A stretch of DNA of 43,535 bases. It comes from Candidatus Rifleibacteriota bacterium. Lineage in GTDB: Bacteria; Muiribacteriota; Ozemobacteria; Ozemobacterales; Ozemobacteraceae. Both the position numbers and the translations under genes were made by a program. The notes beneath the pieces are model-generated. The model was not told where the DNA came from and made no database searches. It saw nothing but the letters and a program-made list of their open reading frames with translations. Position 1 is the stretch's first letter. Each line of letters begins with the position of its first letter. Location: assembly GCA_012517355.1 (NCBI GenBank), contig JAAYVD010000059.1, forward strand, positions 1-43,535, written 5' to 3'. Shown here in pieces: positions 10,405 through 41,877 of the stretch.

Positions 10405-10423
10405 GCGCTTCCCCTCCTGCCAC

Positions 10424-10453
10424 AGAATACTCCCCGGTCCCAGGAAAGTTCAA
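10424..10453 (-). promoter_or_regulatory. Putative housekeeping promoter before module A
   Basis: On the minus strand TTGAAC (10453-10448), an 18-base spacer and TATTCT (10429-10424) lie just upstream of the OmpA gene start at 10404. No TGTAACC element is present here. Confidence 0.4.
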
Positions 10454-10514
10454 CCCGGCGGGGGGGCGGCCGGCCGTGTTGATCGTGTCGATCCGCGTTT
10501 CCCCTTCTTCCGGG

Positions 10515-11087: not shown

Positions 11088-11821
11088 GGGCTGGCCCGGA
11101 ACAGCAGACCGGACATCTTGACGCTCCTCGACACTCCCCCGCTGGTCCAGGCGACCCCGACCACCAGGATCTTGTACTGGAACGGCACGTTGGGCGCGGG
11201 CGGCGGCACCTCGGTCACCGTCAGCGTCGGCTTGAACCGCGGATCGGGCGGCAGGACGCGGGCCGCCACCGCCTCGGCGACCAGGTCGGGGGCGGGCTGG
11301 CCGTCGACCTGGTCGAATCCCTTCCCCTGAAGAAAGCTCAGCACGTCGCCGGCCAGGGCGAAGGCCACCACCTCGTCGCGCGTCTGGACGGTACCGGTGG
11401 TGCCCTGCCGGAATGACAAAAAGACCGGAACCACGGCGACCGCCAGCACCAATAGCGCGATCGCAATCTCGGTGAACGAAAACCCCCGCCCGTCGCGGCG
11501 CCTCGCCGGGAGCCGCCAACGAGGGAACGGCAGGCCGTCCGGGGACAGGAGGTGGGATGACGGGCGGATCGGCGGAAACCCATCCTGCCCCAAGCGACCC
11601 CACCGCCGCGAGGTCGGAAGGGCCCCGTTGCCGCCATGGATGGCGGCGCGAAACGCCAGGTTCGCGCCTCGCCAAGGGGCCGTCCGATCCGAGGGCGACA
11701 TTCCCCGCTGCCCGTCGCCAATGGCCGCGCGCCCCCCCCGATCGTCGTTCCGCAGGGGGGCAGACCCCGGCCACGGGGTGGGGTGCAGCGTGGCCAGACT
11801 CCTTCTCCCTTGATGGCTCAT
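11084..11821 (-). CDS. GspI-like minor pseudopilin with a repeat-bearing leader, module B
   Basis: 245 aa. The ATG at 11821 lies 10 bases after the GspK-like stop with a weak GAGAGG ribosome binding site. The prepilin helix (GRG then FSFTEIAIALLVLAVAVVPVF) starts near residue 110; no closer in-frame start codon is seen, so the leader must be translated. The leader contains an inverted copy of the dispersed hairpin element (11594-11679). The mature part shares FRQGTTGTVQTRDEVVAFALA and PFQYKILVVGVAWTSGGVSR with module A. Confidence 0.82.
   Translation of the reverse strand: MSHQGRRSLATLHPTPWPGSAPLRNDDRGGRAAIGDGQRGMSPSDRTAPWRGANLAFRAAIHGGNGALPTSRRWGRLGQDGFPPIRPSSHLLSPDGLPFPRWRLPARRRDGRGFSFTEIAIALLVLAVAVVPVFLSFRQGTTGTVQTRDEVVAFALAGDVLSFLQGKGFDQVDGQPAPDLVAEAVAARVLPPDPRFKPTLTVTEVPPPAPNVPFQYKILVVGVAWTSGGVSRSVKMSGLLFRASP
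11594..11679 (+). repeat. Dispersed three-hairpin element, copy in the module B GspI-like leader
   Basis: Contains CGAGGTCGGAAG, then GCCGCCA-TGGA-TGGCGGC (7-bp stem) and GCGCGAA-N8-TTCGCGC (7-bp stem), ending CGCCAAGGGG. It is oriented opposite to the host gene. Confidence 0.8.
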
Positions 11822-11831
11822 CGTTCGCCTC

Positions 11832-13985: not shown

Positions 13986-14872
13986 TCCCTCACCAGGACC
14001 ACCCGCCGGTTGCGGGCGCGCCCGGCTTCGGTGCTGTTGTCGGCGATGGGGAAGCGCTCGCCCATGCCCACCGCGTTCAGGCGGCCGGCCTCGATCGCGT
14101 GCTGCATCAGCCAGTTCTTCACCGCCTCCGCCCGCGCTTCCGACAATTGCTGGTTGTAACTGGGATCCTGGAAGGAGTCGGTATGCCCCTCGACCCGGAA
14201 GCGGAGGGCGGGCAGCTTCTTCATCAGGGCCGCGATGCGGGCCAGGTCGGTCTCGGCGTCGGCCGGGATCGCCGAACTCTGGGGGGCGAAGACGATGGTC
14301 AGGGTCAGCCGCCCCTCGGCCGCCAGCCGGGCTTCGAGGGCCGACACGACGGGGTCGACGATATCCCGCGGGAAGGGGGGCGGGTGAGGCCGGAACTCGG
14401 GGTCGGTCTGCCGCCGGTCGGCCGCCCCGGTGGGCGTGAGGTCGAGGACGCCCAGCCCCTTGCCGTCGGCCAGCAGGGACATCGTTCGGGGGATGTTGGC
14501 GAAGGGGTCACCCCCCCCGTCGATCATCGCCTTCAGGGCCTGGATGCGCTGCCGCGTCTCGGCCGCCGACCGGCCGGCCACCCGCAGGGTCAGGCACCCG
14601 AGCTCAATCAGGGCGTCGGCCTCGACGTCGTCGATCCCATTCTGGGCGTCATGGGGCCCGAGGATGACGACCCGCGACCCCTGCGGCACCGCCTCGATCG
14701 AGGTCAGGTAGGTGCCCTGCAGGCCGATGCCCCTGGCGAACGCCTGCTCCATCGGGGAACCGAGGATGCAGGGAACCCCCTGGGCGGCCAGGCGCCCGCC
14801 CGACCCGACCAGGACCAGAAACCCCAGAAACACCGCCAGGACCAGTGATCTTCCCGTCGTCCGGAGGGTCAT
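13982..14872 (-). CDS. OmpA-family C-terminal domain envelope protein, module B
   Basis: 296 aa, the same length as the module A paralogue. GGAGGATAGAGGAC precedes the ATG at 14872. Signal peptide about 1-30 (GGRLAA-QG), then PCILGS. The OmpA-like domain has FAPQSSAIPADAETDLARIA, VEGHTDSFQDPSYNQQLSEAR and GRARNRRVVLV. The N-terminal half (RGIGLQGTYLTSIEAVPQG) matches RGIGVQGRYLDDVNAVPDG of module A, so the whole protein is paralogous, not only the OmpA domain. It is predicted to be periplasmic and peptidoglycan-bound. Confidence 0.92.
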   Translation of the reverse strand: MTLRTTGRSLVLAVFLGFLVLVGSGGRLAAQGVPCILGSPMEQAFARGIGLQGTYLTSIEAVPQGSRVVILGPHDAQNGIDDVEADALIELGCLTLRVAGRSAAETRQRIQALKAMIDGGGDPFANIPRTMSLLADGKGLGVLDLTPTGAADRRQTDPEFRPHPPPFPRDIVDPVVSALEARLAAEGRLTLTIVFAPQSSAIPADAETDLARIAALMKKLPALRFRVEGHTDSFQDPSYNQQLSEARAEAVKNWLMQHAIEAGRLNAVGMGERFPIADNSTEAGRARNRRVVLVRE

Positions 14873-14952
14873 GTCCTCTATCCTCCTATCGCCCATGGCA
14901 CCGGCCCGCCCGACCTCCCCGACCGTTCGGGAACCGGGGGACGTCCACAGGA

Positions 14953-14961
14953 AATATACCA
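14953..14961 (-). promoter_or_regulatory. Extended -10 promoter element before the module B OmpA gene
   Basis: Minus-strand TGG-TATATT (TGn plus -10) about 80 bases upstream of the ATG at 14872. The flanking CATGGTATA is identical to that of the element at 20618-20626. No clear -35 is visible. Confidence 0.4.
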
Positions 14962-14988
14962 TGTTCCACCTCGACCACCCGCGTCGTC

Positions 14989-16122
14989 TCACGGGCCGGG
15001 GCCCGCAGGAACCCCGGCCGGGCCTCGAAACACGGTCAGTCCGGTGAGGGTCACCTCGTCGCGGAACCGGGGGGCCAGCAGAAACAGATGGTCGCCCGAC
15101 CGTTTCAGCTTGCCGGCCGGGTCGAACCACGGGAAGGCTGCCACGGGCCGGGCCGTGGGGGTGCCCGCTCCCGCCAGGACGACGACCAACCGCAACCGCT
15201 GCGGATCGCCCGGTTCGAAGAACGGTGCCAGCGCGGGGTCCTGCCCGACCAGGCGGTTCCGGGCCGCTTCGGCGGCGGCCACCCCCGTCCCGGGGGCGGG
15301 GTCCCGGCCGGCCTCCCGCCCGTCGGGCGGCCCCGCCGGATCGGGCGGCGACAGGGCCACCCAGGTGGCTCCCGAGGCCGGATCCCGATCGATGATCTCC
15401 CCGGCCAGGAAGGTCTTTCCCAAGCGACAGGGGATGCCCCGCTCCGCGCCGCCACCAGCCGTGGGCCGCGACCCGGGCCAGGGCTCCCCGACGAGGGCCA
15501 GGCCGGCCGGTCCGGCCTGGGTGGTCAGCAACGTCCCTCCGGGCGTCAGCCAGGCCGGCCGGTCGGTCTCCCGGTCGCCCACCACCCGGCCATCGACGGA
15601 AACCAGCACCACGACCCGGAACCTCAGGTCGGTCAAGGCCATCCGGCCGTCCGCGGTCGCCTGCAGACGGTATCGCCGCCGGTCGTCCTGCAGCGGGAGG
15701 TTCCGGAAGGGAACCCACGAGGAGGAAGCCGGCTTCCCGCCGGCCAGCAGGGTTTCGAACCCCTCCACGTCACCCAGGAAGCGCACTCCGTCGCGCTGGA
15801 GCACGGCCACCCGCCCGTCGGCGAGGAAACTGGCGGACAGGATGCCGGGGGGCAGCGGCTGGCTGCCGGTCAGCCGGCGCGTCTCCAGGTCACCGGTGAG
15901 CACCTTGCCGGCATACAGATCCTGGATGAACACCCGGTTCCCGACGATGTCGAGGAGGAAGTCGACCCCGCCTTCGCGGCCATCCACGGCGGCTTCGAGG
16001 GGAATCTCCCACCATGGCTCGGCAACGGGAACCCCCGCCCCGGCCGTTCCCGCCCACGCCAGACCCGGCCACCAGAAGGCCAGCATGACCCCCACCACCA
16101 TCCATCCACGCATTCCCGGCAT
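14989..16122 (-). CDS. Secreted beta-rich protein of unknown function, second partner paralogue
   Basis: 377 aa from the ATG at 16122, chosen because AGGAAGG lies about 9 bases upstream; nearby in-frame ATGs at 16131 and 16113 remain possible. Signal peptide ends near PGLAWA-GT. Repeated beta-like blocks (FLLDIVGNRVFIQDLYAGK, SASFLADGRVAVLQRDGVR, RRYRLQATADGRMALTDLR) parallel the gene at 4197-5297. It lies 25 bases after a transglutaminase-like gene, the same order as the plus-strand pair. I do not recognise the family; a propeller-like fold is a guess. Confidence 0.75.
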   Translation of the reverse strand: MPGMRGWMVVGVMLAFWWPGLAWAGTAGAGVPVAEPWWEIPLEAAVDGREGGVDFLLDIVGNRVFIQDLYAGKVLTGDLETRRLTGSQPLPPGILSASFLADGRVAVLQRDGVRFLGDVEGFETLLAGGKPASSSWVPFRNLPLQDDRRRYRLQATADGRMALTDLRFRVVVLVSVDGRVVGDRETDRPAWLTPGGTLLTTQAGPAGLALVGEPWPGSRPTAGGGAERGIPCRLGKTFLAGEIIDRDPASGATWVALSPPDPAGPPDGREAGRDPAPGTGVAAAEAARNRLVGQDPALAPFFEPGDPQRLRLVVVLAGAGTPTARPVAAFPWFDPAGKLKRSGDHLFLLAPRFRDEVTLTGLTVFRGPAGVPAGPGP

Positions 16123-16147
16123 CGGTCTCATCCTTCCTGACGCCCTG

Positions 16148-16864
16148 TCAAAACGGGAGTTCGGCGAAGAGCGATTCGTCGCCGCCACGCCGGCAGTTGA
16201 CCTGGCTGCCCACGCCGTTCCGATCGCTCGAGGCATCCATCACCACCCACTTCCCGTCGAGGAAGGCATAGGCGTAGACATGTCCGCAGACCAGCCCCGA
16301 CGAAAACGTGCAGGTGGAACGCCCATACCGCGCGGGGATGCCCGCCGCCCGCAGCAGGGCCACGATCAGGTGGGCATGGTCGCAGCAGTTCCCCGACCCG
16401 CCCTGCAGCGTCCCGACGGCCCCGTGTCGGGTGTCGAAGTAGAAGGAATAGGCCACCCGGGACTGGACCGCGCTCATGATGTTCGCCGCCACCTGCCGGT
16501 CGGTGCGGGCCACCAGCTCCTTCGCCTCCTCCCGGCTGTCGGGACGGGCCGCCTGCAGCCATGCCTCGCGGTCGGAAACCGCCACCCGGCACTGGTTGGC
16601 CAGGGCCACGATGGCCGGGTCCCGCGACTGGGCATTCCGGGTGGGGGAAAGGAATTCGCCCACCGCCACAGGTCGGGGGGGTGCCGTGCCGGTGTCCTCG
16701 GTGCCGTGCACCGTGCCGGTGATTTCCCCGGTCGCCTCTCCAGGCCGCAACCGGTGGTCGAGGAGGATGCCCGAGGATTCCCGGGCCTGGAGGGGGGCCC
16801 CCGAAAACCCGGCGAGCACCGCCAGCACGAGGATCAGGCCCAGGACCTTCCGGATCGCACCCAT
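16148..16864 (-). CDS. Secreted transglutaminase-fold cysteine hydrolase-like protein (C71-like)
   Basis: 238 aa. The ATG at 16864 has GGAGGAAG 6 bases upstream and leads into a signal peptide (about 1-29). Near the mature N-terminus is SSGILLDH, a variant of the SPxxILxxH motif. The catalytic domain has GNCCDHAHL (Cys 160/161), CTFSSGLVCGHVYAY (His 195) and VVMDASSDRN (Asp 210), resembling pseudomurein endoisopeptidases. Unlike the 493-aa paralogue it lacks the peptidoglycan-binding and N-terminal domains. It opens the long minus-strand run, with a promoter-like TGTAACC site 39 to 67 bases upstream. Confidence 0.82.
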   Translation of the reverse strand: MGAIRKVLGLILVLAVLAGFSGAPLQARESSGILLDHRLRPGEATGEITGTVHGTEDTGTAPPRPVAVGEFLSPTRNAQSRDPAIVALANQCRVAVSDREAWLQAARPDSREEAKELVARTDRQVAANIMSAVQSRVAYSFYFDTRHGAVGTLQGGSGNCCDHAHLIVALLRAAGIPARYGRSTCTFSSGLVCGHVYAYAFLDGKWVVMDASSDRNGVGSQVNCRRGGDESLFAELPF

Positions 16865-16902
16865 GCCTTCTTCCTCCCGGACTCTTCCGATGTTCCGCCC
16901 AT

Positions 16903-16931
16903 GACTTCGCCCCTGACCGTTCCCGGTTACA
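16903..16931 (-). promoter_or_regulatory. Putative ECF-sigma promoter, site 2
   Basis: Minus-strand TGTAACC (16931-16925), 16 bases, GAAGTC (16908-16903). The -10 ends 39 bases upstream of the ATG at 16864. It would drive the run that ends in the sigma gene. Confidence 0.65.
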
Positions 16932-17124
16932 CCGCAGAATGGAATTCTCGGGACTCCAGAAGGTCCACGGACGGGAACCAGGTTGAACCACAGATCACCC
17001 CAGCTCACCGCGGAGGAAGGGCAACCATTCCCCGATCAGACTGGCCGGGAACCTGACCATGAAGGCCCCCTCACCAGTTGGGAGGCGAAAGGGTCGAAAT
17101 CCCTTCCCGTGCCCTGTCCCAGGA

Positions 17125-17676
17125 TCATCGCTCCCCCTGCCAGCCGGGAACCGTGAAGTTCCTGGGATCGTTGCCGCAGAAGACCAGCTTCTCATACCGG
17201 CGCGTCTCCGACCCGCCCGTCACCTGCAGGTGGACGAGAACCCCATACTTCCCCTCGGCGAGCAGGACTTCGGTGAACATGGGGACGTTCCCGTCCTGCC
17301 GGACCTCGAACTCGGGAAACAGCGCATGGTCCTCGTCGGGCCCGCGACCCCCGGTCTTTTTGCGCCCCAGCCCCTTCCGGGTGGGGGTTTCCTGGTAGGT
17401 GACCACCCCGATGACCGGCCCCGAAGCCCGCACGTCATCGACGACCTCGATCCGCAGCCCCGCCGGCTGCGCGTTCACCGCCCGGGCCCGCTGCAGGTCG
17501 GCTTCGATCCGGGACAGGAGCAGGGTTCCCGCCTGCAGGTTGGTGAGCACCTCGAACCCCTGCCGCGAAGACCGCATCCCCGACGAAAGAAGGCGGAACC
17601 CGATGCCGAGCAGCAGGGCCGCCAGGAGAACCCCGACAGCCGTCTCGACGAGGGTGAAACCGCGGCGCGTCTTCAT
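17125..17676 (-). CDS. GspJ-like minor pseudopilin, module C
   Basis: 183 aa, ATGA-coupled to the GspI-like gene. Prepilin signal MKTRRG then FTLVETAVGVLLAALLLGIGF, Glu at +5. It shares with modules A and B the post-helix block (GMRSSRQGFEVLTNLQAGTL, LLSRIEADLQRARAV) and the C-terminus LVFCGNDPRNFTVPGWQ. It is the last gene of module C; about 260 bases without a visible gene separate it from the next gene. Confidence 0.85.
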   Translation of the reverse strand: MKTRRGFTLVETAVGVLLAALLLGIGFRLLSSGMRSSRQGFEVLTNLQAGTLLLSRIEADLQRARAVNAQPAGLRIEVVDDVRASGPVIGVVTYQETPTRKGLGRKKTGGRGPDEDHALFPEFEVRQDGNVPMFTEVLLAEGKYGVLVHLQVTGGSETRRYEKLVFCGNDPRNFTVPGWQGER

Positions 17677-18119
17677 CGCTTCACCTGGAACAGGAGACCG
17701 GACAGGTGGATCCGGCGCTCGATGCCGTAGGTGCTCCAGGCCACCTCGACGACCAGGACCTTGTAGGCATACGGCACCCCCGCCGTGGCCGGGAAGTCGG
17801 ACACGGTCAGGGTGCGGCGGAACCGGGGATCCTGGGCGGACGGATCGTAGACGGTGCGGCTGACCGGCATGTCCTGGGAACCCGCCGCCAGCCGGGGATC
17901 GGCGAACGGCCAGCCTTTGGCCTCCTGCAGGAGCCCCGTGGCCAGGCCGTGGGCCACCGCCTCGTCCCAGGTCTGCCGGGTTCCCTCGGCCCCCCGGTTG
18001 AACAGGGTGAACACCGGCACCAGCACGAGGGCCAACAGCACGATGGCGACCATGATCTCGGCGAAGGACAGGCCGGTGGTTCGTCCCAGGCCCTGGCGGC
18101 GGCGGGGTGAGCGTCTCAT
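17673..18119 (-). CDS. GspI-like minor pseudopilin with short leader, module C
   Basis: 148 aa, ATGA-coupled to the GspK-like gene. Leader of 16 residues (MRRSPRRRQGLGRTTG) then LSFAEIMVAIVLLALVLVPVF, Glu at +5. The mature part matches modules A and B (FTLFNRGAEGTRQTWDEAVA, PYAYKVLVVEVAWSTYGIER, IHLSGLLFQVKR). This is the only I-like gene in the window with a normal short leader, which makes the 100-residue leaders of modules A and B look like insertions. Confidence 0.87.
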   Translation of the reverse strand: MRRSPRRRQGLGRTTGLSFAEIMVAIVLLALVLVPVFTLFNRGAEGTRQTWDEAVAHGLATGLLQEAKGWPFADPRLAAGSQDMPVSRTVYDPSAQDPRFRRTLTVSDFPATAGVPYAYKVLVVEVAWSTYGIERRIHLSGLLFQVKR

Positions 18120-20539
18120 GGCAGGAAGACCGGGTTGGGGTCGACACTGCACCCGACGATCCGGTCGACGTCGGCGTCCCCGGAAGACTTCGGCAGCACG
18201 GCCAGGTTCTCGTTGTAGAACAGGTCCGCGCCTTCGGAGGCGTTGCGGATGTCGAACCGCCCGGTGAGCACCGCCCCCCGGATGGTCGGCCGCCCCTTCC
18301 GGAACAGGACCCGCCCGCTGGCAGCCAGGACGGCATCGACCCGCTTCCCGCCCAGTTCGGCCACCAGGATGTCCCCCTCGAGGGCCACCAGGTGCAAGGT
18401 CCAGGCGGGGGGCCGGTCGTCGGCCGTTGCCCCGCCGCCGTCGATGGCGGCCCCCACCACGATGTTCCCCTTCCGGAGCACGATTCCCCCGTTCCCCTTC
18501 AGGGTCAGGGGCTTGTCGATCACCAGGCCGTGCGGGCAGTCCCCGTCGAGGAAGACCCATCCCTGCGGGTCGAGCCGTTCGGCGGCCGGGTCGAACAGGC
18601 CGTGCTGGGCCAGGGCCTCCTTCCACAGGTCGGGGGCGCGGGGGGAAAGGCCCGCCCTCGCCGCCGCGCTGGCCAGGCCGATGTCCCAGCTGGCCCGGCC
18701 ACTGCAGAAACCCCGGTCTCCGGGCACGCGCAGGTGCTCCTTCCCCAGCAGCACGGCCAGCCGGGGAATGCCGGCCGGCGCCGCCCCGGGGGGCAGCAGG
18801 TCCCGCAGCGGCGGCGGGACCTCACTCAATTCGGGCGGGGGCGGGGTGGGCAGGGCGGTCATCCGGCTCTTCAGGTCGGCGCGGAAGTTCCCGAACGGGT
18901 TGGGCTCGCGGTTGCCGGTGGTGATGAAGCCGATCGAGGCATTGTACGCGACCTGCCCCGACCGGCTGGCATACTGGCGCCGGAAGGTGACCAGCCCGGT
19001 GCGGTCGTCCTGCAGGCCCAGGATCACCCTGGCGAAGGTGGCGACGCTCTCGATCCCTTCGCGGGCCGCGCGGTTGGCATCGAAATCCAGGTAGTGGGAA
19101 AAATCCTCCGGGCAGGTCGGGTAGTAGAGGAACGCGGCCGACAGCAGCCCCGGCGGCTCCGACTGGCAGGCTTTGGCCGAGATCGTGCCCCGGAACACGT
19201 TGCCGGTGACGAGCGTCGGCGTGTGCCGGCCCTTGTCGGTCCCGAAGAGCCGGAAGACCGAGTTGTGCCGCATCAGCAGCCCTTCGGGGGTGGAGGCGAC
19301 AAAATCGCTCCAATCCGGTTGCCACCCGGGCTGGCGGTCGTCGGCGATGCCGCGGTCCCATTGCAGGAGGCCGACGACCCCGTTCTTGTAGGGAAACTCC
19401 TTCACGGTGTAGAGGCCGTCCCGCTGCCCCTTTCCGTTCACCGTCTCGAAGAAATGGAACGACTCGCCCCAGGTGCCGCGGCTGTCCCCGCGGGCCAGGT
19501 TGAGCACGGTGGGCCCGGCCCCGCCGAAATGGATCAGCCCCACCCGGTCGCGGGCGAACGATTCCAGGTCGGTGGGCCGGGACTGGTCGAATGTGCCTCC
19601 GTTGTGCAACACGAGGGGAACCGCCCGCGAGGTCTTGGCCAATTCCCCGTCGGGGGTGGTGGTGACGAGGTTGAACCGGTAGCAGGGCGAGAGGTCGTCC
19701 CCGCGCGCGTCGGTCTGGGGGTCGTCGACGAACAGGTGGTATTTCGACAGCAGCGGCACCCAGGCCGCCGTCACCTTCACGGCGAGCGCGAACGCGAACT
19801 CCTCCGACCGCTGCCGGAAGGGAATGGTGATCCGCAGCCGGATGTAGCCCGCCTTCTCCTGGGGCAGGGCCGGGGCGGGAAAGGGGGAAAAATCGCCCCG
19901 CGCCAGCGACCAGGCGATCCGGAACCCGGACACCCCGTCCGGCCGCAGCGGCTGAAGCATGGCTTCGGCCAGCGGTTGCAGGTCGGCCGGCCCTCCGTCG
20001 AGGGGCAGAGGGCATTCCCCCACGTCGGTGAACGACGTCATGGCCCGCACCAGGAGACGCCGCAGGTGGCCCTGGTCGGACGGCCGGTCGGACAGCAGAT
20101 CGTGCTGGATCTTGTGGGCGCCCAGCACCGCCAGGCCCTGGGCCACCGACTCGGCGAGCCGCCCCTCCTCCTGGCGCAGGGTCTGGGCCCGGATCGCCAG
20201 CATGCCCTCCAGGAACCACCCCCCGACGATGACCAGCACCACCAGGAACACGAGGATGGTCAACAGCACCGACCCCCGCCGCCCAACGCCGCCTGGAGGA
20301 AAACCCTGCGGGCAGGCGGAGCCGCCCGGAACCCTTCCGGACTGCCCCACAGACCTTCTCCGGCAGGGCGTTCGGGCCGAACGCGACCGGGTCCGGTCGC
20401 GCCAGGGCGGAGGACAGGAACGGCAGCCCGTCGTCCCTTCCGGCTGGACCCGGCAGGAAACGATGGCGCCGGGGGATGGCCCAACCGACCAGGACAAAGA
20501 CCAGGGAGCCACCGGGCCCAAGGTCAGCCGGCGCACCAT
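18116..20539 (-). CDS. GspK-like large minor pseudopilin with a long leader, module C
   Basis: 807 aa from the ATG at 20539, with AAGGAGG 7 bases upstream. A leader of about 90 residues precedes RRG and the helix SVLLTILVFLVVLVIVGGWF, which lacks Glu at +5. The exported region matches modules A and B (AHKIQHDLL, LSKYHLFVDDP, VGLIHFGGAGPTVLNLARGD, SVFRLFGTDKG, ASIGFITTGNREPNPFGNF) and ends in a beta-helix-like section (GNGGIVLRKGNIVVGAAI, IRGAVLTGRFDIRNAS). The leader DNA holds two adjacent perfect palindromes (20368-20400). Unlike modules A and B, no OmpA gene precedes it. Confidence 0.8.
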   Translation of the reverse strand: MVRRLTLGPVAPWSLSWSVGPSPGAIVSCRVQPEGTTGCRSCPPPWRDRTRSRSARTPCRRRSVGQSGRVPGGSACPQGFPPGGVGRRGSVLLTILVFLVVLVIVGGWFLEGMLAIRAQTLRQEEGRLAESVAQGLAVLGAHKIQHDLLSDRPSDQGHLRRLLVRAMTSFTDVGECPLPLDGGPADLQPLAEAMLQPLRPDGVSGFRIAWSLARGDFSPFPAPALPQEKAGYIRLRITIPFRQRSEEFAFALAVKVTAAWVPLLSKYHLFVDDPQTDARGDDLSPCYRFNLVTTTPDGELAKTSRAVPLVLHNGGTFDQSRPTDLESFARDRVGLIHFGGAGPTVLNLARGDSRGTWGESFHFFETVNGKGQRDGLYTVKEFPYKNGVVGLLQWDRGIADDRQPGWQPDWSDFVASTPEGLLMRHNSVFRLFGTDKGRHTPTLVTGNVFRGTISAKACQSEPPGLLSAAFLYYPTCPEDFSHYLDFDANRAAREGIESVATFARVILGLQDDRTGLVTFRRQYASRSGQVAYNASIGFITTGNREPNPFGNFRADLKSRMTALPTPPPPELSEVPPPLRDLLPPGAAPAGIPRLAVLLGKEHLRVPGDRGFCSGRASWDIGLASAAARAGLSPRAPDLWKEALAQHGLFDPAAERLDPQGWVFLDGDCPHGLVIDKPLTLKGNGGIVLRKGNIVVGAAIDGGGATADDRPPAWTLHLVALEGDILVAELGGKRVDAVLAASGRVLFRKGRPTIRGAVLTGRFDIRNASEGADLFYNENLAVLPKSSGDADVDRIVGCSVDPNPVFLP
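20368..20400. repeat. Two adjacent perfect palindromes in the module C GspK-like leader
   Basis: 20368-20384 is GCGTTCGG-G-CCGAACGC (8-bp arms). 20383-20400 is GCGACCGG-GT-CCGGTCGC (8-bp arms), sharing two bases with the first. They sit in the same position relative to the prepilin helix as the three-hairpin elements elsewhere. Confidence 0.75.
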
Positions 20540-20726: not shown

Positions 20727-20755
20727 GAATTCCCCCTGGACCGTGAATGGTTACA
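20727..20755 (-). promoter_or_regulatory. Putative ECF-sigma promoter, site 3 (module C)
   Basis: Minus-strand TGTAACC (20755-20749), 16 bases, GAATTC (20732-20727), about 190 bases upstream of the GspK-like start at 20539. Confidence 0.65.
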
Positions 20756-20806: not shown

Positions 20807-20835
20807 TGTAACCGGCAGACCTTCCCCCGGAATAC
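20807..20835 (+). promoter_or_regulatory. Putative ECF-sigma promoter, site 4 (module D)
   Basis: TGTAACC at 20807-20813, 16 bases, GAATAC at 20830-20835, 172 bases before the ATG at 21008. Both boxes are identical to those at site 8; site 6 has the same -10. Confidence 0.7.
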
Positions 20836-26481: not shown

Positions 26482-26818
26482 CCGGAGACCGGCCGCCGGC
26501 TCAGGGCCGGGCCACCGTCCCGAGATACGCCGGAAGTCGCCCCGGATCTTCTCCAACAGCGCGGTCCGGACGGACGGGAACGGGCAGGGCAACTCCAGGG
26601 TGGCCTGGAAGGCCGTGCGGAAGTCGGCCAGCTGCCGGCGCACGGGCGATGACCAGGGAGGGAACGAAGGACCCCGCCTTCATGGTGACGCGGTCCCCCG
26701 TAAAGTCCAGGAAGATGTCCTTCAGCTCGGGGTCGGCCCAGAACCCGGCCGCCACCGGCCCCGCCAGGAAGACGAGCACGAACGGGAAAAGGGTCGGGAT
26801 TCCGCGGCGAGCATGCAT
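26449..26818 (-). pseudogene. Small secreted protein gene, apparently frameshifted
   Basis: The ATG at 26818 has GAGGAG upstream and gives a signal peptide (MHARRGIPTLFPFVLVFLAG) followed by WADPELKDIFLDFTGDR and MKAGSFVPSLVIA. In this frame G/C-ending codon bias is strong until about 26650 and then collapses. The bias continues in the +1 frame from a GTG at 26643 (VRRQLADFRTAFQATLELPC, FPSVRTALLEKIRGDFRRIS) to a stop at 26449. The span is 370 bases, one more than a multiple of three, as expected for a single extra base near 26645-26650. Joined, it would be about 122 aa. It could be a real frameshift, an assembly error or two overlapping genes. Unknown function; it has no counterpart in module E. 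Confidence 0.55.
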
Positions 26819-26857
26819 ACGGCTCCTCATTTCTGGACCATGGGATTTCTCACCCGG

Positions 26858-26886
26858 TCCCTGGTCGGAGCGGGTTCCAGGTTACA
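26858..26886 (-). promoter_or_regulatory. Weak ECF-sigma promoter candidate, site 5
   Basis: Minus-strand TGTAACC (26886-26880) with CAGGGA 16 bases on. The -35 is perfect but the -10 fits poorly. Distance to the ATG at 26818 is similar to that at site 2. Confidence 0.35.
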
Positions 26887-26939: not shown

Positions 26940-27143
26940 CTAGGCATCCGCCCACGACCCCCGGTGGGGAAGGGGAGTACCTCCCGGCAGCCCCGGCCAC
27001 CCCGCAGGGAAAATGGTGGACCGGGACCGCGGCAGAGAACCAGGAACACCCTTGGACCTCAGGACGACCAGAAACCCGACCGGAGAGGCGCCGCCACCGA
27101 GCCGGCGGATCCCCCGACCGCTTCCCTGCCGGAAAACGATCGC

Positions 27144-27172
27144 CGTAACCGGAATCCGTTCCGAGGGAATAC
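27144..27172 (+). promoter_or_regulatory. Putative ECF-sigma promoter, site 6 (module D FecR/TPR)
   Basis: CGTAACC at 27144-27150, 16 bases, GAATAC at 27167-27172, 32 bases before the ATG at 27205. This supports that start rather than upstream alternatives. Confidence 0.65.
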
Positions 27173-27204
27173 CCGGACAGACAGACGACCCGCAGGAGGG
27201 AACC

Positions 27205-28038
27205 ATGACGAGGGGCCTTCGCAGGATGGTGCTGATGGGCTGCTTGGCTGGATGGATGCTGAGCGGCATGGCCGGCTCCGCTCCGGCGGGGGCGGCATCT
27301 CCCGCCCTGCCGGGCGTCGGACCCGTCCCGCCCGCGTTCGACCGCGTGTACATCTACGGCATGGTCGTCCTGGAGCCGGGTGGCGGCACGGTGTTCTATC
27401 CCGACCAGCGGCCACCCCGCACCGCCAGCGGGTCCGACCTGCTCGTGCCGACCGGCGCCAGCATCCGGACCGGGGCCTCGGAGACGGCGGTGATCCGGGT
27501 CGGCCAAGGGTCCGTGCTGCGCCTCGCCCCCCGGACGGAGGTGATCGTCCGCCCCGCCCGCCTCGACCTGCAGCAGGGGGAATGCCTGGTCCGCCACGGC
27601 GATGCCGTCATCCCCTTCCGGTTGGGTGGCACGGCCATGGTCTCGATCGCTCCGGGTGGAACGGTCGAAGCCGCCCGCGAGGGCGACCACCTGCTGCTCG
27701 TCGTCCAGGCGGGCACCGCCCGCGTCGGGAACCACCCAACCCCGCTCGCCGCCGGCCAGAAGGCCGAAGTGACCAAGGCGTCCGTACGGCTGTCCGACAC
27801 CCTTGCCCTGCCCGGAAACGAGCCCGCGCCCGGCGCCGCCGGACCGCCGCCCGACCCCTTCGATGCCCTGGCGACCGGCGACGAGGCGGCTGAACCCGCG
27901 GGAACCACCCCCACCGCCCCGCCCGCCGCCCAGGTCCCCGGCAAACCGGCGGACCAGCCCAAGACGCCACCCAGCACGCGGGATTTCCTGCGGAAACACC
28001 AGGATCCCAATCCGGAATCCAGCCAGGAAACGCCATGA
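27205..28038 (+). CDS. Secreted FecR-domain protein, module D
   Basis: 277 aa. The ATG at 27205 follows GGAGGGAACC and the site 6 promoter. Signal peptide about 1-30. A FecR-like beta domain (about 40-200) has LLVPTGASIRTGASETAVIR, GSVLRLAPRTEVIVRPARLD and LQQGECLVRHGDAVIPFRLG. There is no transmembrane anchor after the signal, so it is probably a soluble periplasmic protein and not a classic FecR anti-sigma regulator. The Pro-rich tail ends with STRDFLRKHQD, a variant of the SPxxILxxH motif. It is ATGA-coupled to the TPR gene, an arrangement repeated in module E. Confidence 0.85.
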   Translation: MTRGLRRMVLMGCLAGWMLSGMAGSAPAGAASPALPGVGPVPPAFDRVYIYGMVVLEPGGGTVFYPDQRPPRTASGSDLLVPTGASIRTGASETAVIRVGQGSVLRLAPRTEVIVRPARLDLQQGECLVRHGDAVIPFRLGGTAMVSIAPGGTVEAAREGDHLLLVVQAGTARVGNHPTPLAAGQKAEVTKASVRLSDTLALPGNEPAPGAAGPPPDPFDALATGDEAAEPAGTTPTAPPAAQVPGKPADQPKTPPSTRDFLRKHQDPNPESSQETP

Positions 28039-29841: not shown

Positions 29842-29870
29842 TGTAACCAACCCCCTGCCTCGCAGAATAC
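29842..29870 (+). promoter_or_regulatory. Putative ECF-sigma promoter, site 8 (module E)
   Basis: TGTAACC at 29842-29848, 16 bases, GAATAC at 29865-29870, 68 bases before the ATG at 29939. Sites 4 and 8 share identical boxes although the 16-base spacers differ in sequence. Confidence 0.7.
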
Positions 29871-29938: not shown

Positions 29939-31129
29939 ATGAAACGGACGATCGGACGACGGGCCCTGGTGTGGATCCTCGCCTTCCTCTGCGCCGTCCA
30001 GCCATTGGTGGTCGAGGTGGTACGCGCCGAGTCGACCTCCGCGGCCCAGGCGGTGGCCGACGAAAAGACCCGGTTCGACGAGACCTACCAGCAGATCATG
30101 GACCTCAAGCCGATCGAGATCGACTGGCTGACCGCCAAGACCCTCTGCCTCGGCGACAGCCTCTCGGGCCAGGACTGGGGCACCTACGAGGCCAAGATCA
30201 AGGAGGCCAACAAGGCCATCGACCAGGCCAAGCAACAGGCCAGCCAGGCCAAGACCACCCTCGATCTCGAAGCCATTCACGCCAAAACCCTGGCCACCGA
30301 ACAAGACGGGGTCAAATCCGACCTGACGGGAACCACCAAGGCCAAGGCCCTCCTGCAGACCGGCCTCCGCGATGTCGGCAACCAGCTCAAATCCCTCGGG
30401 GAGGCGATGAACACGGTTTCCCTCGTCATGTCGGCCGCCTACATCGCCCTCGTCGTGATCGGCGCGGTGGCCACCGTCGGCGTCCTGTCGGCCCTCGTCA
30501 CCCCCCTCGGCACCGCCGCCACCGTGCTGGGCATCGTCGGAACCTCCCTGAGCGTGGCCGGCCAGTCACTGGTCAACGCCAGCCAGGCCGGGGCCAACAC
30601 CGACAACGCGGTCCTCACCGCCATCGGCTGCGGGGTGGCGACCGGCGTCGTGCTGGGGGCCTTCACGAAGTATGCCCCCGGCCTCGACAAATTGGCCGCC
30701 AAGGGCATCAACCCCCTCGCCAAGTGGTTGACCGGCAAGTCGGTGTCCCAGTCCGGCACCCTGAGCGGCACCCTGTTCAATTTCATCCGGTCCCACAGCA
30801 AAGCCTACGACGTCCTGGCCACCCGCGCCCTGAACGCCGCCGGCCGCGATGTCCTGGGAACGGCGGGCCAACGCTCGGCCTTCACCATCTACGACGGCGT
30901 GGCCGTGACGGCCGCCAACCAGGCCCGCCAGAACCTCCTCAAGGAAGGCACCACCAAGGCCATCGGCCTCATGCTCGGCCAGATGGGGATTCCCGACTCG
31001 GTCTCCGACGTGATGAAGGGGACGATCATCGGGAACCTGGCTCCCAAACCGCCCGAGGAAGGGGAAGGAACCCCCGCCGGCGACCCCCGGATCAAGACAA
31101 AGCCAGGCCTGTCGATTCCGAAGAAATAG
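29939..31129 (+). CDS. Secreted protein with a hydrophobic Gly/Ala region, first gene of module E
   Basis: 396 aa. The ATG at 29939 follows AGGAGGAACAC. Signal peptide about 1-30 (QPLVVEVVRA-ES). A helical region with paired Cys context (AKTLCLGDSLSGQDWG) precedes a long Ala/Val/Gly-rich hydrophobic stretch (about 155-215: AYIALVVIGAVATVGVLSAL, PLGTAATVLGIVG, VATGVVLGAFTKYAPGLDKL). This resembles membrane-inserting regions of some toxins. The C-terminus is IKTKPGLSIPKK, matching the tail of the module D counterpart. No family recognised. Possibilities are a secreted effector or a structural substrate. Confidence 0.75.
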   Translation: MKRTIGRRALVWILAFLCAVQPLVVEVVRAESTSAAQAVADEKTRFDETYQQIMDLKPIEIDWLTAKTLCLGDSLSGQDWGTYEAKIKEANKAIDQAKQQASQAKTTLDLEAIHAKTLATEQDGVKSDLTGTTKAKALLQTGLRDVGNQLKSLGEAMNTVSLVMSAAYIALVVIGAVATVGVLSALVTPLGTAATVLGIVGTSLSVAGQSLVNASQAGANTDNAVLTAIGCGVATGVVLGAFTKYAPGLDKLAAKGINPLAKWLTGKSVSQSGTLSGTLFNFIRSHSKAYDVLATRALNAAGRDVLGTAGQRSAFTIYDGVAVTAANQARQNLLKEGTTKAIGLMLGQMGIPDSVSDVMKGTIIGNLAPKPPEEGEGTPAGDPRIKTKPGLSIPKK

Positions 31130-35760: not shown

Positions 35761-35848
35761 GGATCAGGGGAGGTCCCCGGGGACGGCTTTCCCCTGACCA
35801 TGTTCCGGAATCCCCGTCCTTCCCATTCACCCACCGAGGATGGCCGTG

Positions 35849-36772
35849 ATGACCCGCTACCCCGTCTTGTCGGTTCCGGTTCTTCTGGTCGCCATCCTGT
35901 TCGCCGCGACCTGTTCCGTGGCGGATGTTCCCCCGGCCCAGGGCCAGGGCCGGGACAACCCTGCCCGTGATTCCTCCCGGACGACGGCCGCCACCCCGAC
36001 CGCGCAGCCAGCCCGCGAAGGCCGGGCCCCCAGCCTCCCGCCCGTTTCGCCGAGGCGGTTCAGCGAGGTCTACCCTGTCGGCATGGCCGTTTTCCTCCCC
36101 GGGAGCGGGTCGGTCCTCCTGCCCGACCGCCCGGACCGGCCGCTGGTTCCCGACCGGGAGACCCTGCTGCCCACCGGTTCCATCGTCCGCACCGGCCCGA
36201 CGGAAGAAGCCCGGGTCCGCCTGGGCGAGCGGTCCCTGCTGCGGATCGGCCCCGACTCCGAGGTCGTCTTCCGCGCCCTGCACCTCGAGATCTCCCGCGG
36301 AACCGTTTTCCTGCGCCATGGCGAAACGCTCCTTCCCCTGCCCGTCCGGTCGGGGAGATCCCTGGTCCTTCTCGACCGCGGGGCGGCGGCCGACCTGGAG
36401 GCGCAGGAGGACGGCCTGCTGGTGACGCCGCAGGCGGGTTCGGTCCGCCGGCCGGGGCAACCCCGGGCCTTCGGACCGGGAGAACGGTTCTTCTGCCGCG
36501 GCGACACCCTGGTCGAGGACGCCCCGCCCGCCCGCACCGCCCCGGCCCTGGCCGCGGCCGGGCCCCAAACCCCCGACCGGGTCCTCTGGCCCGAACTGGT
36601 CGACGCCCTCGAGACGGCCCTCGCCGAGGCGGCCACCGGCGACTGGCCAGCCCCCGGCCCCGACTCGACGGGCCCCGCCCCCGCCGTCGAGCCCGCCGCG
36701 CCGCCCCGACCGATGGGCATCCTTCGTCACCATACCCTCACCGGGTCGGGCAGCGAGGAGATTGGGCCATGA
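35849..36772 (+). CDS. Secreted FecR-domain protein, module E
   Basis: 307 aa. The ATG at 35849 is preferred because GAGG at 35836-35839 is 9 bases upstream; an ATG at 35840 would sit on that site. Signal peptide about 1-25 (LFAATCSVAD). The FecR-like domain parallels the module D protein: LLPTGSIVRTGPTEEARVRL, GERSLLRIGPDSEVVFRALH, ISRGTVFLRHGETLLPLPVR. No membrane anchor. The C-terminus has PMGILRHHTL, a variant of the SPxxILxxH motif. ATGA-coupled to the TPR gene. About 280 bases without a visible gene precede it (35569-35848). Confidence 0.85.
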   Translation: MTRYPVLSVPVLLVAILFAATCSVADVPPAQGQGRDNPARDSSRTTAATPTAQPAREGRAPSLPPVSPRRFSEVYPVGMAVFLPGSGSVLLPDRPDRPLVPDRETLLPTGSIVRTGPTEEARVRLGERSLLRIGPDSEVVFRALHLEISRGTVFLRHGETLLPLPVRSGRSLVLLDRGAAADLEAQEDGLLVTPQAGSVRRPGQPRAFGPGERFFCRGDTLVEDAPPARTAPALAAAGPQTPDRVLWPELVDALETALAEAATGDWPAPGPDSTGPAPAVEPAAPPRPMGILRHHTLTGSGSEEIGP

Positions 36773-38650: not shown

Positions 38651-39565
38651 TCAGTCGGCGAGGCGCAGGCTGGTGATCAGGCAGCCGTGGTCGGAATACC
38701 CTTCCTTGAACCCGCGCACCCAGGCCGGGCCGTCGGGGGCGAAACCGCCCTTGAGGAAGATGTAGTCGATCTTGGTGCCGGGCTCGTTCATGTAGGTGGT
38801 GTCGACGTTGGCCGTCAGGTCGGTCATCAGGGCGGTGATGGCGCTGATGTTGGACGAGGCGGGCATGGAATTGAGGTCACCCATCAGCAGGCAGGGCTCG
38901 GTGCGCCGCTTGACCATCTCGAGGATCTGCTGCACCTGGCGGCCCGATTCCTGGGCCTTCAGGCTGAGATGGGCCACGAACACCCGCACCTTCCGGCCCT
39001 GGCCCAGGTCGATCAGCGCCTCGAGGCAGCCGCGCTGCTCTTCCTTCTCCGACAGCCGGTACAGTTTGTGGTTCTTGTGCGATAGAATGGGGAACCGGCT
39101 GATGATCGCATTTCCCTGGGCCGCCCCGACCAGGGCGATACGGAAGTTCTCGCCGTAGACCGACTTGAACCCCAGCCGCCCCGCCAAAAATCGCGGCTGG
39201 TCGCACAACACCGACCGGAAATCGACCCCCGAGATCTCGGTGCAGCCGACGATGTCGACCTTTTCCGCCTTCAGCAGCGCAGCGATGCCGTCCAGGTTCC
39301 GGAGGTTGCCGATCTCGTTGATCCCGCCCCGCTTGTTGCCGCGCGCGTGGGCGATGTTGTAGGTCGCCACCCGGATGCGGTCGCCCGCCACCGCCACCTT
39401 CGGCGTGAACAGCTTCTTGATGCCGAGCGGGTCGGTGTTCGCCTGCGCGGCGTGTTCCTGCAGGATCTCCTGCGGGCTCTTGCCCGCGGCCGGCAGGGCC
39501 AGAAGTGCCAGCAGGGCCACCGCCAGCATCATCGCTCCCAGGGGTCTCGGATGTGCGCGCGTCAT
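38651..39565 (-). CDS. Secreted endonuclease/exonuclease/phosphatase-family protein
   Basis: 304 aa. Signal peptide about 1-28, then SPQEILQEH (30-38), a copy of the SPxxILxxH motif. The EEP fold has its usual motifs in order: VATYNIAH (Asn), DIVGCTEIS (Glu), GNAIISRFPI, VRVFVAHLSL (His), LLMGDLNSMP (Asp and Asn), KIDYIFLKG and GYSDHGCLI (Asp-His). All key residues appear present, so it should be an active metal-dependent phosphoesterase or nuclease in the periplasm or outside the cell; the substrate is unknown. It starts 34 bases after the anti-sigma stop and is probably co-transcribed. It is convergent with module E. Confidence 0.92.
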   Translation of the reverse strand: MTRAHPRPLGAMMLAVALLALLALPAAGKSPQEILQEHAAQANTDPLGIKKLFTPKVAVAGDRIRVATYNIAHARGNKRGGINEIGNLRNLDGIAALLKAEKVDIVGCTEISGVDFRSVLCDQPRFLAGRLGFKSVYGENFRIALVGAAQGNAIISRFPILSHKNHKLYRLSEKEEQRGCLEALIDLGQGRKVRVFVAHLSLKAQESGRQVQQILEMVKRRTEPCLLMGDLNSMPASSNISAITALMTDLTANVDTTYMNEPGTKIDYIFLKGGFAPDGPAWVRGFKEGYSDHGCLITSLRLAD

Positions 39566-39599: not shown

Positions 39600-40811
39600 T
39601 CATTCCGACCGCTTCAGCGAATGGCCGTTCAGGATGTCACGGGGGGAAAGGGAAGCCGCCGGCGGGGAAGCGGTCTGGCTCGCCGGCCATCCCTGCCCGG
39701 CGAGAGGATCGGGGCCGGAGGCGGCCGTCGCCACCCCGGCGGGAAAGGAAACCGGTGCGGGGGGAACCGCCACCGGGGGAACCGCCGCCGGGCCATCCGT
39801 GGGCCCCTCCGCCAGGCGGTTCCAGTCAGCCAGATCGGCCGCCACCACCGTCTCCACCGTCACCCGGGTGTGGTCGGCCACCAACCGCTGGCCGGCCGCC
39901 AGGTCGCGGTGGCCCGCCGTCCCTTCCCACGCCACCCCGCCCTCGACCAGGACCACCTCGGTGCCCGAGGCCTGGGCCCGCACTCCGAAGCGGGTGCCGG
40001 TAACCTCGACCCGGCCCTGCGGAGTCCGGACCCGGAACGGAGGCCGACCCGCCGCCCGGGGCCCCACCTCGAACCAGGCCACCCCGACAGGCAGGGAGAC
40101 CTCGTCAGGAGCCAGTTCGACGACCGTGTCCGCCCCGACGGCCACCCGGCCGCCCGGGTCGAGACGGAACTCGAGCCGCGACCCCGCCCCGGTCTGGAAA
40201 CGGGCGGGGACGCCCACGGCCAGCGGCCCGGGCGGCAAGCGCGGTTCCCAGGATCCGGCGGCCGCGGCCAGGACGATGGTGGCCGACGGACCGAGAGCGG
40301 CGACCGGCAGCGGAGCCGGAGTCACCGCGGGAACAGCCGGCAAAAGCGGCTGGGCCGGGAGGTCCGTCGGCGGGGTGGCTGGAGGGTTCCCCTCTCGCGG
40401 AGGGGTGGCAAGGCCGGACGTCCCGTTGGAAATCGGGCCAGGCCCGGCCGGGCCACCGCCACCCGAGAAGGCCAGCAGCGCCAGGCCCGCCGCCAGGGCC
40501 AGGGTTCCCACGACCTTCCACAGGAATGGAACCGCCGCCGGCCCGGGGGCTGGCGCCACCCGTTCCATCACGCGCGGCACGAGATCCAGGTCCGGCACGT
40601 GCGGACGCAGTCCCCGCAACCGCCCGTCGCCGCGGCGGACCGCCTCGAGGGCTTGCCGGCAGGCGGGGCAGCCGGCGAGATGCGTGTTGAGGTCGGCCGT
40701 CCGGGAAGGATCGAGAGTTCCTTCGGCAAGATCGAAGAGCAGCCCTTCCCGGTCACTGCCCAGGGGGCAGCCGGCGGCCGCAGGAGGATCGGTTGGTCGC
40801 TGGTTCGTCAT
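39600..40811 (-). CDS. Anti-sigma factor: zinc-finger (zf-HC2-like), membrane helix and FecR domain
   Basis: 403 aa. Residues 44-51 give HLAGCPACR, the HxxxCxxC of zinc-binding anti-sigma domains, in the context LFDLAEGTLDPSRTADLNTH. A single membrane helix lies at about 98-116 (WKVVGTLALAAGLALLAFS). The periplasmic part is a FecR domain at about 175-330 (ARFQTGAGSRLEFRLDPGGR, EVTGTRFGVRAQASGTEVVL, VEGGVAWEG). The C-terminus is SPRDILNGHSLK. The fusion fits a transmembrane anti-sigma factor that holds an ECF sigma at the membrane until a periplasmic signal. No sigma gene is adjacent; the only one in view is at 5564-6127. Its own upstream region carries a TGTAACC-N16 site, suggesting feedback. 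Confidence 0.9.
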   Translation of the reverse strand: MTNQRPTDPPAAAGCPLGSDREGLLFDLAEGTLDPSRTADLNTHLAGCPACRQALEAVRRGDGRLRGLRPHVPDLDLVPRVMERVAPAPGPAAVPFLWKVVGTLALAAGLALLAFSGGGGPAGPGPISNGTSGLATPPREGNPPATPPTDLPAQPLLPAVPAVTPAPLPVAALGPSATIVLAAAAGSWEPRLPPGPLAVGVPARFQTGAGSRLEFRLDPGGRVAVGADTVVELAPDEVSLPVGVAWFEVGPRAAGRPPFRVRTPQGRVEVTGTRFGVRAQASGTEVVLVEGGVAWEGTAGHRDLAAGQRLVADHTRVTVETVVAADLADWNRLAEGPTDGPAAVPPVAVPPAPVSFPAGVATAASGPDPLAGQGWPASQTASPPAASLSPRDILNGHSLKRSE

Positions 40812-40823
40812 GGCTTCATCCAG

Positions 40824-40852
40824 GACTTGTCGCGAACCAGGAAACGGTTACA
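40824..40852 (-). promoter_or_regulatory. Putative ECF-sigma promoter of the anti-sigma gene, site 9
   Basis: Minus-strand TGTAACC (40852-40846), 16 bases, CAAGTC (40829-40824). The -10 ends only 12 bases before the ATG at 40811, so a start about 7 bases on would give a nearly leaderless mRNA. Confidence 0.6.
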
Positions 40853-40938: not shown

Positions 40939-41817
40939 TTACATCCCGGAGGGGGCGGGGGGACCCACATGGCCCTTCAGCAGGGCGCCAGGGCTGGCCA
41001 ACTGGGCATCGCCATCCTCTCTGGGGGCGAACCCGTCGAGGGTCGTGTGGAGGGCCTCAGGGTGGCCTTCCCCCCCGGAAACGGCCCCGCCCGCCGCGGG
41101 TTCGGACCCGCCCGCGGGGTCTTCGGGCACCGCACTGCCCGCCAGGTCCGGCTCGTAGGCTTTGAAGACCTCCCGGCCCCAGGGATCGGTGGGGTCGGCC
41201 TCGGAGGGCTGCCATTTCGCGATCTGCAGGTTTTCCCCGCTCACCCGCAGGGGGCGGCCGGGTTCCCACTCGAAGGGGGCGATCGCCGGCTTGTCGGGTT
41301 CCACGGTGACCTTGCCTTCGAGCAGGTGCACCATGCCGGTTTCGGAAGCCAGGGCGAAGGCGACCCGGGTGCCCCGGATGCCCAGGGTGGCACAGGGAAC
41401 CTTGATCCGGAGCTTTTTCCCGGGGGCGACCAGGAACCCCGCGATAAAGCGGCCCTCCGTGGTTTTGAACCCGTCCTCGGTCAGTTCCATCCGGCAGCGG
41501 CCCACGCAGTCGATCGAACTGCCGCCGGGCAGGGCCAGGGTGGCCCGCGAGTCGTCGGCCGCCAGGAAGAGGATCGACCCGAACGGAACCATCGACGGGT
41601 TGGCGGCCAATTGGATGGCCTGACCGGCGGGGGGTGCAACCTCACCGCCCTTCCCGGAGGCCTGGATCCCCGGAGTGGCAACGCCTGCCGTCGAAGATTG
41701 TGCGATCTCCTGGGAAGGGGATTTGGGGGAAGACTGCGTCCACCAGAGGAATCCGGCCCCGATCAGGAGGATGGCCACCACCACAACGACCAGACCGCCG
41801 CCCTTGGCACGGATCAT
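40939..41817 (-). CDS. Membrane-anchored FecR-domain protein
   Basis: 292 aa. The ATG at 41817 is chosen because AGGAGG lies about 6 bases upstream. N-terminal anchor (GGGLVVVVVAILLIGAGFLW, about 7-26) without a cytoplasmic domain, so unlike FecR proper it has no obvious sigma-binding part. The FecR-like core includes GSILFLAADDSRATLALPGG, KVPCATLGIRGTRVAFALAS and MVHLLEGKVTVEP. An acidic, Gly/Pro-rich tail ends ASPGALLKGHVG, a copy of the SPxxILxxH motif. It precedes the anti-sigma gene by 127 bases, in which a separate TGTAACC site lies. Confidence 0.82.
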   Translation of the reverse strand: MIRAKGGGLVVVVVAILLIGAGFLWWTQSSPKSPSQEIAQSSTAGVATPGIQASGKGGEVAPPAGQAIQLAANPSMVPFGSILFLAADDSRATLALPGGSSIDCVGRCRMELTEDGFKTTEGRFIAGFLVAPGKKLRIKVPCATLGIRGTRVAFALASETGMVHLLEGKVTVEPDKPAIAPFEWEPGRPLRVSGENLQIAKWQPSEADPTDPWGREVFKAYEPDLAGSAVPEDPAGGSEPAAGGAVSGGEGHPEALHTTLDGFAPREDGDAQLASPGALLKGHVGPPAPSGM

Positions 41818-41848: not shown

Positions 41849-41877
41849 ATTTTACCCGATCCCGGCCCGTGGTTACA
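41849..41877 (-). promoter_or_regulatory. Putative ECF-sigma promoter, site 10 (variant -10)
   Basis: Minus-strand TGTAACC (41877-41871), 16 bases, TAAAAT (41854-41849), 32 bases before the ATG at 41817. The -10 keeps the central AA but is otherwise closer to a housekeeping box. Confidence 0.5.

Follow-up and report, generated by a model that had tools for sequence, protein, structure and literature searches.

The stretch analysed here, the window, comprises 43,535 nucleotides from a Candidatus Rifleibacteriota bacterium (contig JAAYVD010000059.1, assembly GCA_012517355.1), and the genes in question are those predicted to encode an extracytoplasmic function (ECF) sigma factor and a membrane-bound anti-sigma factor. 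The window is one entire contig (G000:C134 in our numbering) of a 184-contig, 7.1 Mb genome assembly; the genome is 96% complete. It encodes a PilQ/GspD-type secretin, several pseudopilin-like sets, and OmpA-type, transglutaminase and tetratricopeptide repeat (TPR) proteins, and the two regulatory genes lie 33.5 kb apart at opposite ends of this pilus-like cluster (Table 1). An earlier note on this DNA had placed the sigma gene at the end of a pseudopilin operon and a zinc-finger/FecR anti-sigma gene at the other end of the cluster, and both placements are borne out.

The sigma factor is 187 residues long. Pfam recognises Sigma70_r2 (66.8 bits, residues 31-98) and Sigma70_r4_2 (38.2 bits, residues 125-177), with only a short linker and no domain between sigma2 and sigma4, which is the domain arrangement of the ECF group (group IV), and a profile search of the Protein Data Bank (PDB) returned SigW (5wuq_A) as the best match. 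Since later ECF classifications demand only the sigma2 and sigma4 domains (PMC8103513), a non-adjacent anti-sigma gene does not exclude the protein from this group. A 4-nt overlap (ATGA; 6124/6127) joins the ATG of the sigma gene to the stop codon of the pseudopilin gene ahead of it. Intergenic gaps in the operon are -4 to 116 nt, except for two with an uncertain start codon, and terminator-like sites within it are not above chance.

The anti-sigma factor is predicted to comprise a cytoplasmic zinc-finger domain of the zinc-associated anti-sigma (ZAS) type, one transmembrane (TM) helix, a periplasmic FecR-type beta domain, a low-complexity stretch and a tail, SPRDILNGHSLKRSE. Its N-terminus is of the RsiW type, a helical domain with H-x3-C-x2-C followed by the single TM helix; Pfam finds zf-HC2 (27.3 bits, residues 24-52) and FecR (57 bits, residues 204-293), and the AlphaFold model has helices at 18-84 and a predicted membrane helix at 95-113. 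In the PDB profile search the N-terminus matched RsiW (5wuq_C, profile positions 13-71) and the periplasmic part matched PupR, while a Foldseek search with the model returned PupR (6ovk_R, 2.1e-08) and also BDI_1681. The second, C-terminal subdomain of PupR was not seen: residues 338-403 are modelled as low-confidence coil with one short helix, and the profile matches span the first subdomain only. In two relatives, G012 and G005, the anti-sigma factors (L097 4004-5011, L098/L099) have kept the helical domain and lost the zinc ligands, C-x2-C being replaced by ANADSR in G012 and by EHEDCR in G005.

Comparison with relatives and paralogues indicates that these distant genes encode a true pair, as the earlier note had proposed. 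The sigma factor falls within a clade (support 0.998) spanning 11 Ozemobacteraceae (Riflebacteria) loci, three of them in this genome (the window and contigs C125 and C10) and eight in relatives. At nine of the ten other loci the next same-strand gene after the sigma gene encodes an anti-sigma factor of the zinc-finger/TM type, usually with a FecR-type domain, and at C125 the anti-sigma gene is convergent with the sigma gene and adjacent to it; the window is the only locus of the clade with a distant anti-sigma gene. The closest paralogues of the sigma factor in its own genome are C125:23502 (1.7e-48) and C10:98759 (2.0e-48), the next being at 4e-19, and a genome search with the anti-sigma factor gave matches at E<=1e-8 only at C125:22329 and C10:99357, which adjoin these same two sigma genes. 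These searches, independent of each other, both point to C125 and C10. In addition, the two proteins match, again in independent searches, one chain each of the SigW-RsiW complex (5wuq A/C). The note had named a better-partnered sigma gene elsewhere in the genome as a finding that would undo the pairing; none emerged when one was sought. As the note had stated, the two genes are usually adjacent: the remaining ECF genes of this genome almost all adjoin zinc-finger/TM protein genes of their own, the exceptions being C72 (two sigmas), C75 and C178 (zinc-finger gene 2.7 kb away). A zf-HC2 match (41 bits) at C10:143904 (L048) has no recognised sigma gene nearby.

The TGTAACC-N16-CAAGTC site that the note had read in front of the anti-sigma gene is exact, and is one of seven TGTAACC-N16-nAAnW sites in the window, each ahead of a gene or operon. 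This number is not due to chance, as first-order Markov shuffles predict 0.007 (maximum 1 in 300). With slightly looser spacing, about six places were found in the remaining 7.07 Mb, compared with five for a reversed control. An eighth TGTAACC site (26858-26886, minus strand, TGTAACC-N16-CAGGGA) was excluded for a -10 without AA; a 109-residue open reading frame (ORF) with a signal-peptide-like start (26501-26830, minus strand) lies behind it. The "shared promoter" of the note holds in the sense that one type of promoter is common to both genes, but not in the sense of one promoter serving both. One of the places outside the window, C143:5520 (L095) on a separate contig, has TGTAACC-N16-TAAAAT at the head of another pseudopilin operon. 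This operon is likely a further target of the window sigma factor, so the regulon may extend past the window contig.

Table 1. Genes and predicted promoters in the window (nucleotide positions).
Feature	Position	Strand	Basis or remark
ECF sigma gene, final gene of pseudopilin operon	5564-6127	-	Pfam, TIGR02937, PDB profile
Anti-sigma gene (zf-HC2/TM/FecR)	39600-40811	-	Pfam zf-HC2 and FecR; PDB profile; AlphaFold; Foldseek
Predicted sigma-dependent promoter of anti-sigma gene, TGTAACC-N16-CAAGTC	40824-40852	-	41 nt before ATG
Predicted sigma-dependent promoter of pilin-sigma operon, TGTAACC-N16-GAAGTC	16903-16931	-	67 nt before 16864 start codon
Predicted promoter, TGTAACC-N16-TAAAAT	41849-41877	-	before second FecR gene (40939-41817)
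Predicted promoter, TGTAACC-N16-CAAGTT	2571-2599	+	before peptidoglycan-binding/transglutaminase gene 2696-4177
Predicted promoter, TGTAACC-N16-GAATTC	20727-20755	-	before large pilin-like 18116-20269 and its two pseudopilins
Predicted promoter, TGTAACC-N16-GAATAC	20807-20835	+	before operon whose first ORF ends at 22090
Predicted promoter, TGTAACC-N16-GAATAC	29842-29870	+	before 29939-31129 and its operon
Pseudopilin operon	5564-16864	-	one strand throughout, ends with sigma gene; Pfam
Transglutaminase, first gene of pseudopilin operon	16148-16864	-	
Operon gene after transglutaminase, no label	14989-16101	-	
OmpA, pseudopilin operon	13982-14872	-	
Large pilin-like, pseudopilin operon	11832-13985	-	
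Two pseudopilins, pseudopilin operon	11084-11821, 10515-11087	-	
Second OmpA, pseudopilin operon	9514-10404	-	
Second large pilin-like, pseudopilin operon	7388-9463	-	
Second pseudopilin pair, pseudopilin operon	approx. 6675-7380, 6124-6660	-	
Large pilin-like gene and pseudopilins	18116-20269; 17673-18119, 17125-17676	-	behind 20727-20755 site
Secreted endonuclease/exonuclease/phosphatase-family protein	38651-39532	-	shares block with anti-sigma and FecR genes in relatives, ~53% identity
Membrane-anchored FecR-type protein, no zinc finger	40939-41817	-	Pfam FecR 22 bits, just below cut-off; relatives above it
Other FecR-type proteins, no zinc finger	27013-28038, 35840-36772		weak matches
Peptidoglycan-binding/transglutaminase gene	2696-4177	+	behind 2571-2599 site

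The promoter type follows the sigma clade. TGTAAC-N15-17-nAAnW, a relaxation of the motif made after the sequences were seen, stands ahead of the anti-sigma gene at 10 of the 11 loci, with a chance of a site of <=0.002 per locus (110-nt upstream stretch); around the 26 non-clade sigma loci of this genome (78 kb) there were no matches. Before the anti-sigma gene the base after TGTAAC is C in G012, G005, G014 and G004, and A or T in C10, G001, G002, G007 and G008. The 18 sites listed from cluster-type loci share TGTAACC, 16-nt spacing and an AA within the -10. All carry the AAC in the -35 that was, together with CGT in the -10, an early criterion for ECF promoters, later relaxed (PMC8103513); their -10 is nAAnW and not CGT. 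G012 has six sites within 19 kb of a single contig and 28 in its whole 5.7 Mb genome. The motif also heads the pilin-sigma operon in the window (16931), C10 (-51), G014 (-57), G012 (156037), G005 (-137) and G007 (-93), with weaker versions in G001, G002 and G004. Both feedback promoters look ancestral in the sigma clade.

As the promoter is conserved before the anti-sigma gene and heads the pilin-sigma operon at most loci, dual feedback is likely. This agrees with the suggestion in the note of positive feedback on the sigma gene through the site upstream of 16864. Negative feedback through the anti-sigma gene is likewise favoured, but the stronger statement that the anti-sigma factor is made only when the sigma factor is active does not follow, a basal source having been neither found nor excluded. 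No common housekeeping promoter was found before the anti-sigma gene in a scan that covers the E. coli consensus only. At six loci the site stands at -41/-42 from the ATG, giving an anti-sigma leader of about 5 nt, and the Shine-Dalgarno sequence of the window gene is weak (-3.1 versus a median of -8.7 kcal/mol for 19 window genes), which suggests that the anti-sigma factor is made mainly from its own mRNA.

Gene order in relatives bears on how the pair came to be separated. G012 and G005 both have the sigma gene first, followed by the promoter, the anti-sigma gene, the FecR and phosphatase-family genes and the pilin cluster. The window sigma gene retains its position behind pilin genes, which it shares with C125 and C10. 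The window anti-sigma gene likewise still lies between its FecR-type and phosphatase-family neighbours, but duplicated pilin and TPR sets separate it from the sigma gene. Rearrangement with expansion explains this arrangement, and the 34-kb split is probably an accident of this lineage, a rearrangement local to this genome, after which the anti-sigma gene would have remained under control because its own sigma-type promoter travels with it. The separation depends on the assembly of C134, since the window is a single contig, one of 184 and metagenome-derived. The pairing could be right and the genes truly adjacent if the contig were misassembled, a reading favoured by the confinement of the split to this one genome, whose relatives have adjacent genes. 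Against this, the contig has no repeat of >=60 bases that might mislead an assembler, making a misjoin less likely, the sigma gene keeps its ancestral place behind pilin genes and the anti-sigma gene its FecR and phosphatase-family neighbours, and the interval between them is made up of further genes of this cluster, preceded by the same promoters. We therefore regard an assembly error as distinctly unlikely.

We propose that one sigma/anti-sigma system governs the pseudopilus cluster, with the sigma factor activating the pilin operon that carries its gene and, independently, the anti-sigma gene, and with the split tolerated; we put the probability of this reading at about 0.8. The genes, their pairing by homology and synteny, the placement and conservation of the promoters, the membrane topology and the domain types are supported by the sequences and comparisons above. 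The cytoplasmic zinc-finger domain of the anti-sigma factor would hold the sigma factor at the membrane. A signal from the envelope, received by the periplasmic FecR-type domain, would then free the sigma factor, probably by triggered proteolysis; the genome encodes two strong site-2-type M50 proteases. The freed sigma factor would transcribe from the TGTAACC-N16-nAAnW sites ahead of the pilin-type operons, including the long operon that ends in its own gene (positive feedback), and, as negative feedback, from a separate one immediately ahead of the anti-sigma gene. The 34-kb separation would be tolerated thanks to this second promoter. We rejected a classical FecA-FecR-FecI arrangement, as no TonB receptor carrying an STN domain turned up in the genome, where four TonB-receptor barrels and a single STN match lie on different contigs; together with the missing second PupR subdomain, this makes a FecA-type route unlikely. 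The note had let the signal enter through the other FecR proteins; these are present, but have no zinc finger, and nothing links them to a signal.

Several points weigh against our proposal. Sigma binding and promoter use are read from sequence, the operon of about 11 kb may contain internal promoters, the split is known from one assembly only, and C125 has no clear site before its anti-sigma gene. The model leaves unexplained the source of the basal anti-sigma factor needed to hold the sigma factor before activation. Furthermore, the partner trees agree at clade level only, since the window anti-sigma factor clusters with that of C125 (0.85) and the window sigma factor with those of G012/G005 (0.78).

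Three related pairs coexist in this genome and their promoters are alike (TGTAACC versus TGTAACA), so that the paralogues might be cross-wired, the anti-sigma factor of C125 or C10 mainly holding the window sigma factor and that of the window being a decoy or serving another sigma factor. We consider this unlikely, given that the C125 and C10 anti-sigma genes each adjoin their own sigma gene and that the window anti-sigma gene has the window-type TGTAACC promoter and encodes a C-terminal tail like those of the G012/G005 partners. That another sigma factor reads the TGTAACC sites, or a different regulator binds them, leaving the window sigma factor with another role, is very improbable: the motif follows the clade over ten loci and several genera, with a clade-specific base after TGTAAC, and is absent at the 26 other sigma loci, even though the -10 departs from the CGT common in ECF promoters (PMC8103513) and recognition by this sigma factor is deduced from motifs. 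Beyond our proposal, the clade, here found only in Riflebacteria, might act as an assembly-state sensor in pseudopilin operons, with translation of the sigma gene coupled to that of the final minor pseudopilin gene, a near-leaderless, sigma-dependent anti-sigma mRNA, and pseudopilus/secretin status read by the FecR-type domain or the conserved C-terminal tail; this extension is speculative and rather doubtful.

Short tails of the [S/D]xxxLxxH type recur in the window, at the C-termini of the anti-sigma factor and the other FecR-type proteins (40939-41817, 27256-28038 and 35840-36772) and at the N-terminus of the phosphatase-family protein (SPRDILNGHS, SPGALLKGHV, STRDFLRKHQDP, PMGILRHH and SPQEILQEHA). 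The anti-sigma factors of relatives terminate, after low-complexity stretches, in LDETLLHHQP, LDDTLFRHQP or SPLDVLNEWS. G012 and G005 likewise have a FecR-type gene next to the anti-sigma gene. A set made up of a large pilin-like protein and two pseudopilins is present in three copies at 6124-20269, apparently tandem duplicates, the large proteins being 42-52% identical. For the 691-residue large pilin-like protein, structure prediction gave no assignment (model pLDDT 57.6; no PDB match below 0.001), and an Rfam search of the window returned no matches. Two more ECF/anti-sigma pairs, at C178 (L034) and C131 (L039), lie within or beside pilin-type genes; pilin-linked ECF switches therefore recur in this genome.

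A normally inseparable gene pair can thus be split, and distance need not break the feedback, since a predicted sigma-dependent promoter already stood before the anti-sigma gene itself. More useful than the split is the finding of a conserved double promoter across the pilin-linked sigma clade. The analysis yields a promoter code, TGTAAC-N16-nAAnW, together with a regulon for a phylum without cultured members, and at about ten loci it connects pseudopilus/type II-like secretion genes with an ECF switch. Our literature search gave no reports of ECF regulation in Riflebacteria.

Elements of this system have precedents. ECF sigma factors are often positively autoregulated, proteolysis is the usual means of release for membrane anti-sigma factors, and anti-sigma genes far from their sigma genes have been described (PMC8103513). 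SigW/RsiW of Bacillus subtilis provides the solved-structure relatives of both partners (5wuq A, C) and likewise has a membrane anti-sigma factor with a class I anti-sigma domain; here, in contrast, the periplasmic part is of the FecR/PupR type, the genes are 34 kb apart, the anti-sigma gene has a separate sigma-type promoter and the -10 is nAAnW. The periplasmic domain resembles those of FecI/FecR and PupI/PupR, by its match to PupR and to Pfam FecR, whereas the N-terminus is a zinc-finger anti-sigma domain, no second subdomain was seen, only low-complexity sequence, and no STN-domain TonB receptor was found; moreover, fecIR is not autoregulated (PMC9249621). In HasI/HasS of Serratia marcescens the sigma factor does drive its own anti-sigma gene in negative feedback (PMC9249621), but the genes are adjacent, serve haem uptake, and hasI itself is not autoregulated. 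RpoE2/RsiA1 of Sinorhizobium meliloti is a precedent for an anti-sigma gene away from the sigma gene (PMC8103513), although as part of the general stress response. VreI/VreR (PUMA3) of Pseudomonas aeruginosa, compared here by its description, is an ECF sigma factor and FecR-like regulator whose target is the type II secretion (Hxc) locus next to them (PMC2729926); there, unlike here, the sigma and regulator genes are adjacent and accompanied by the receptor-like protein VreA.
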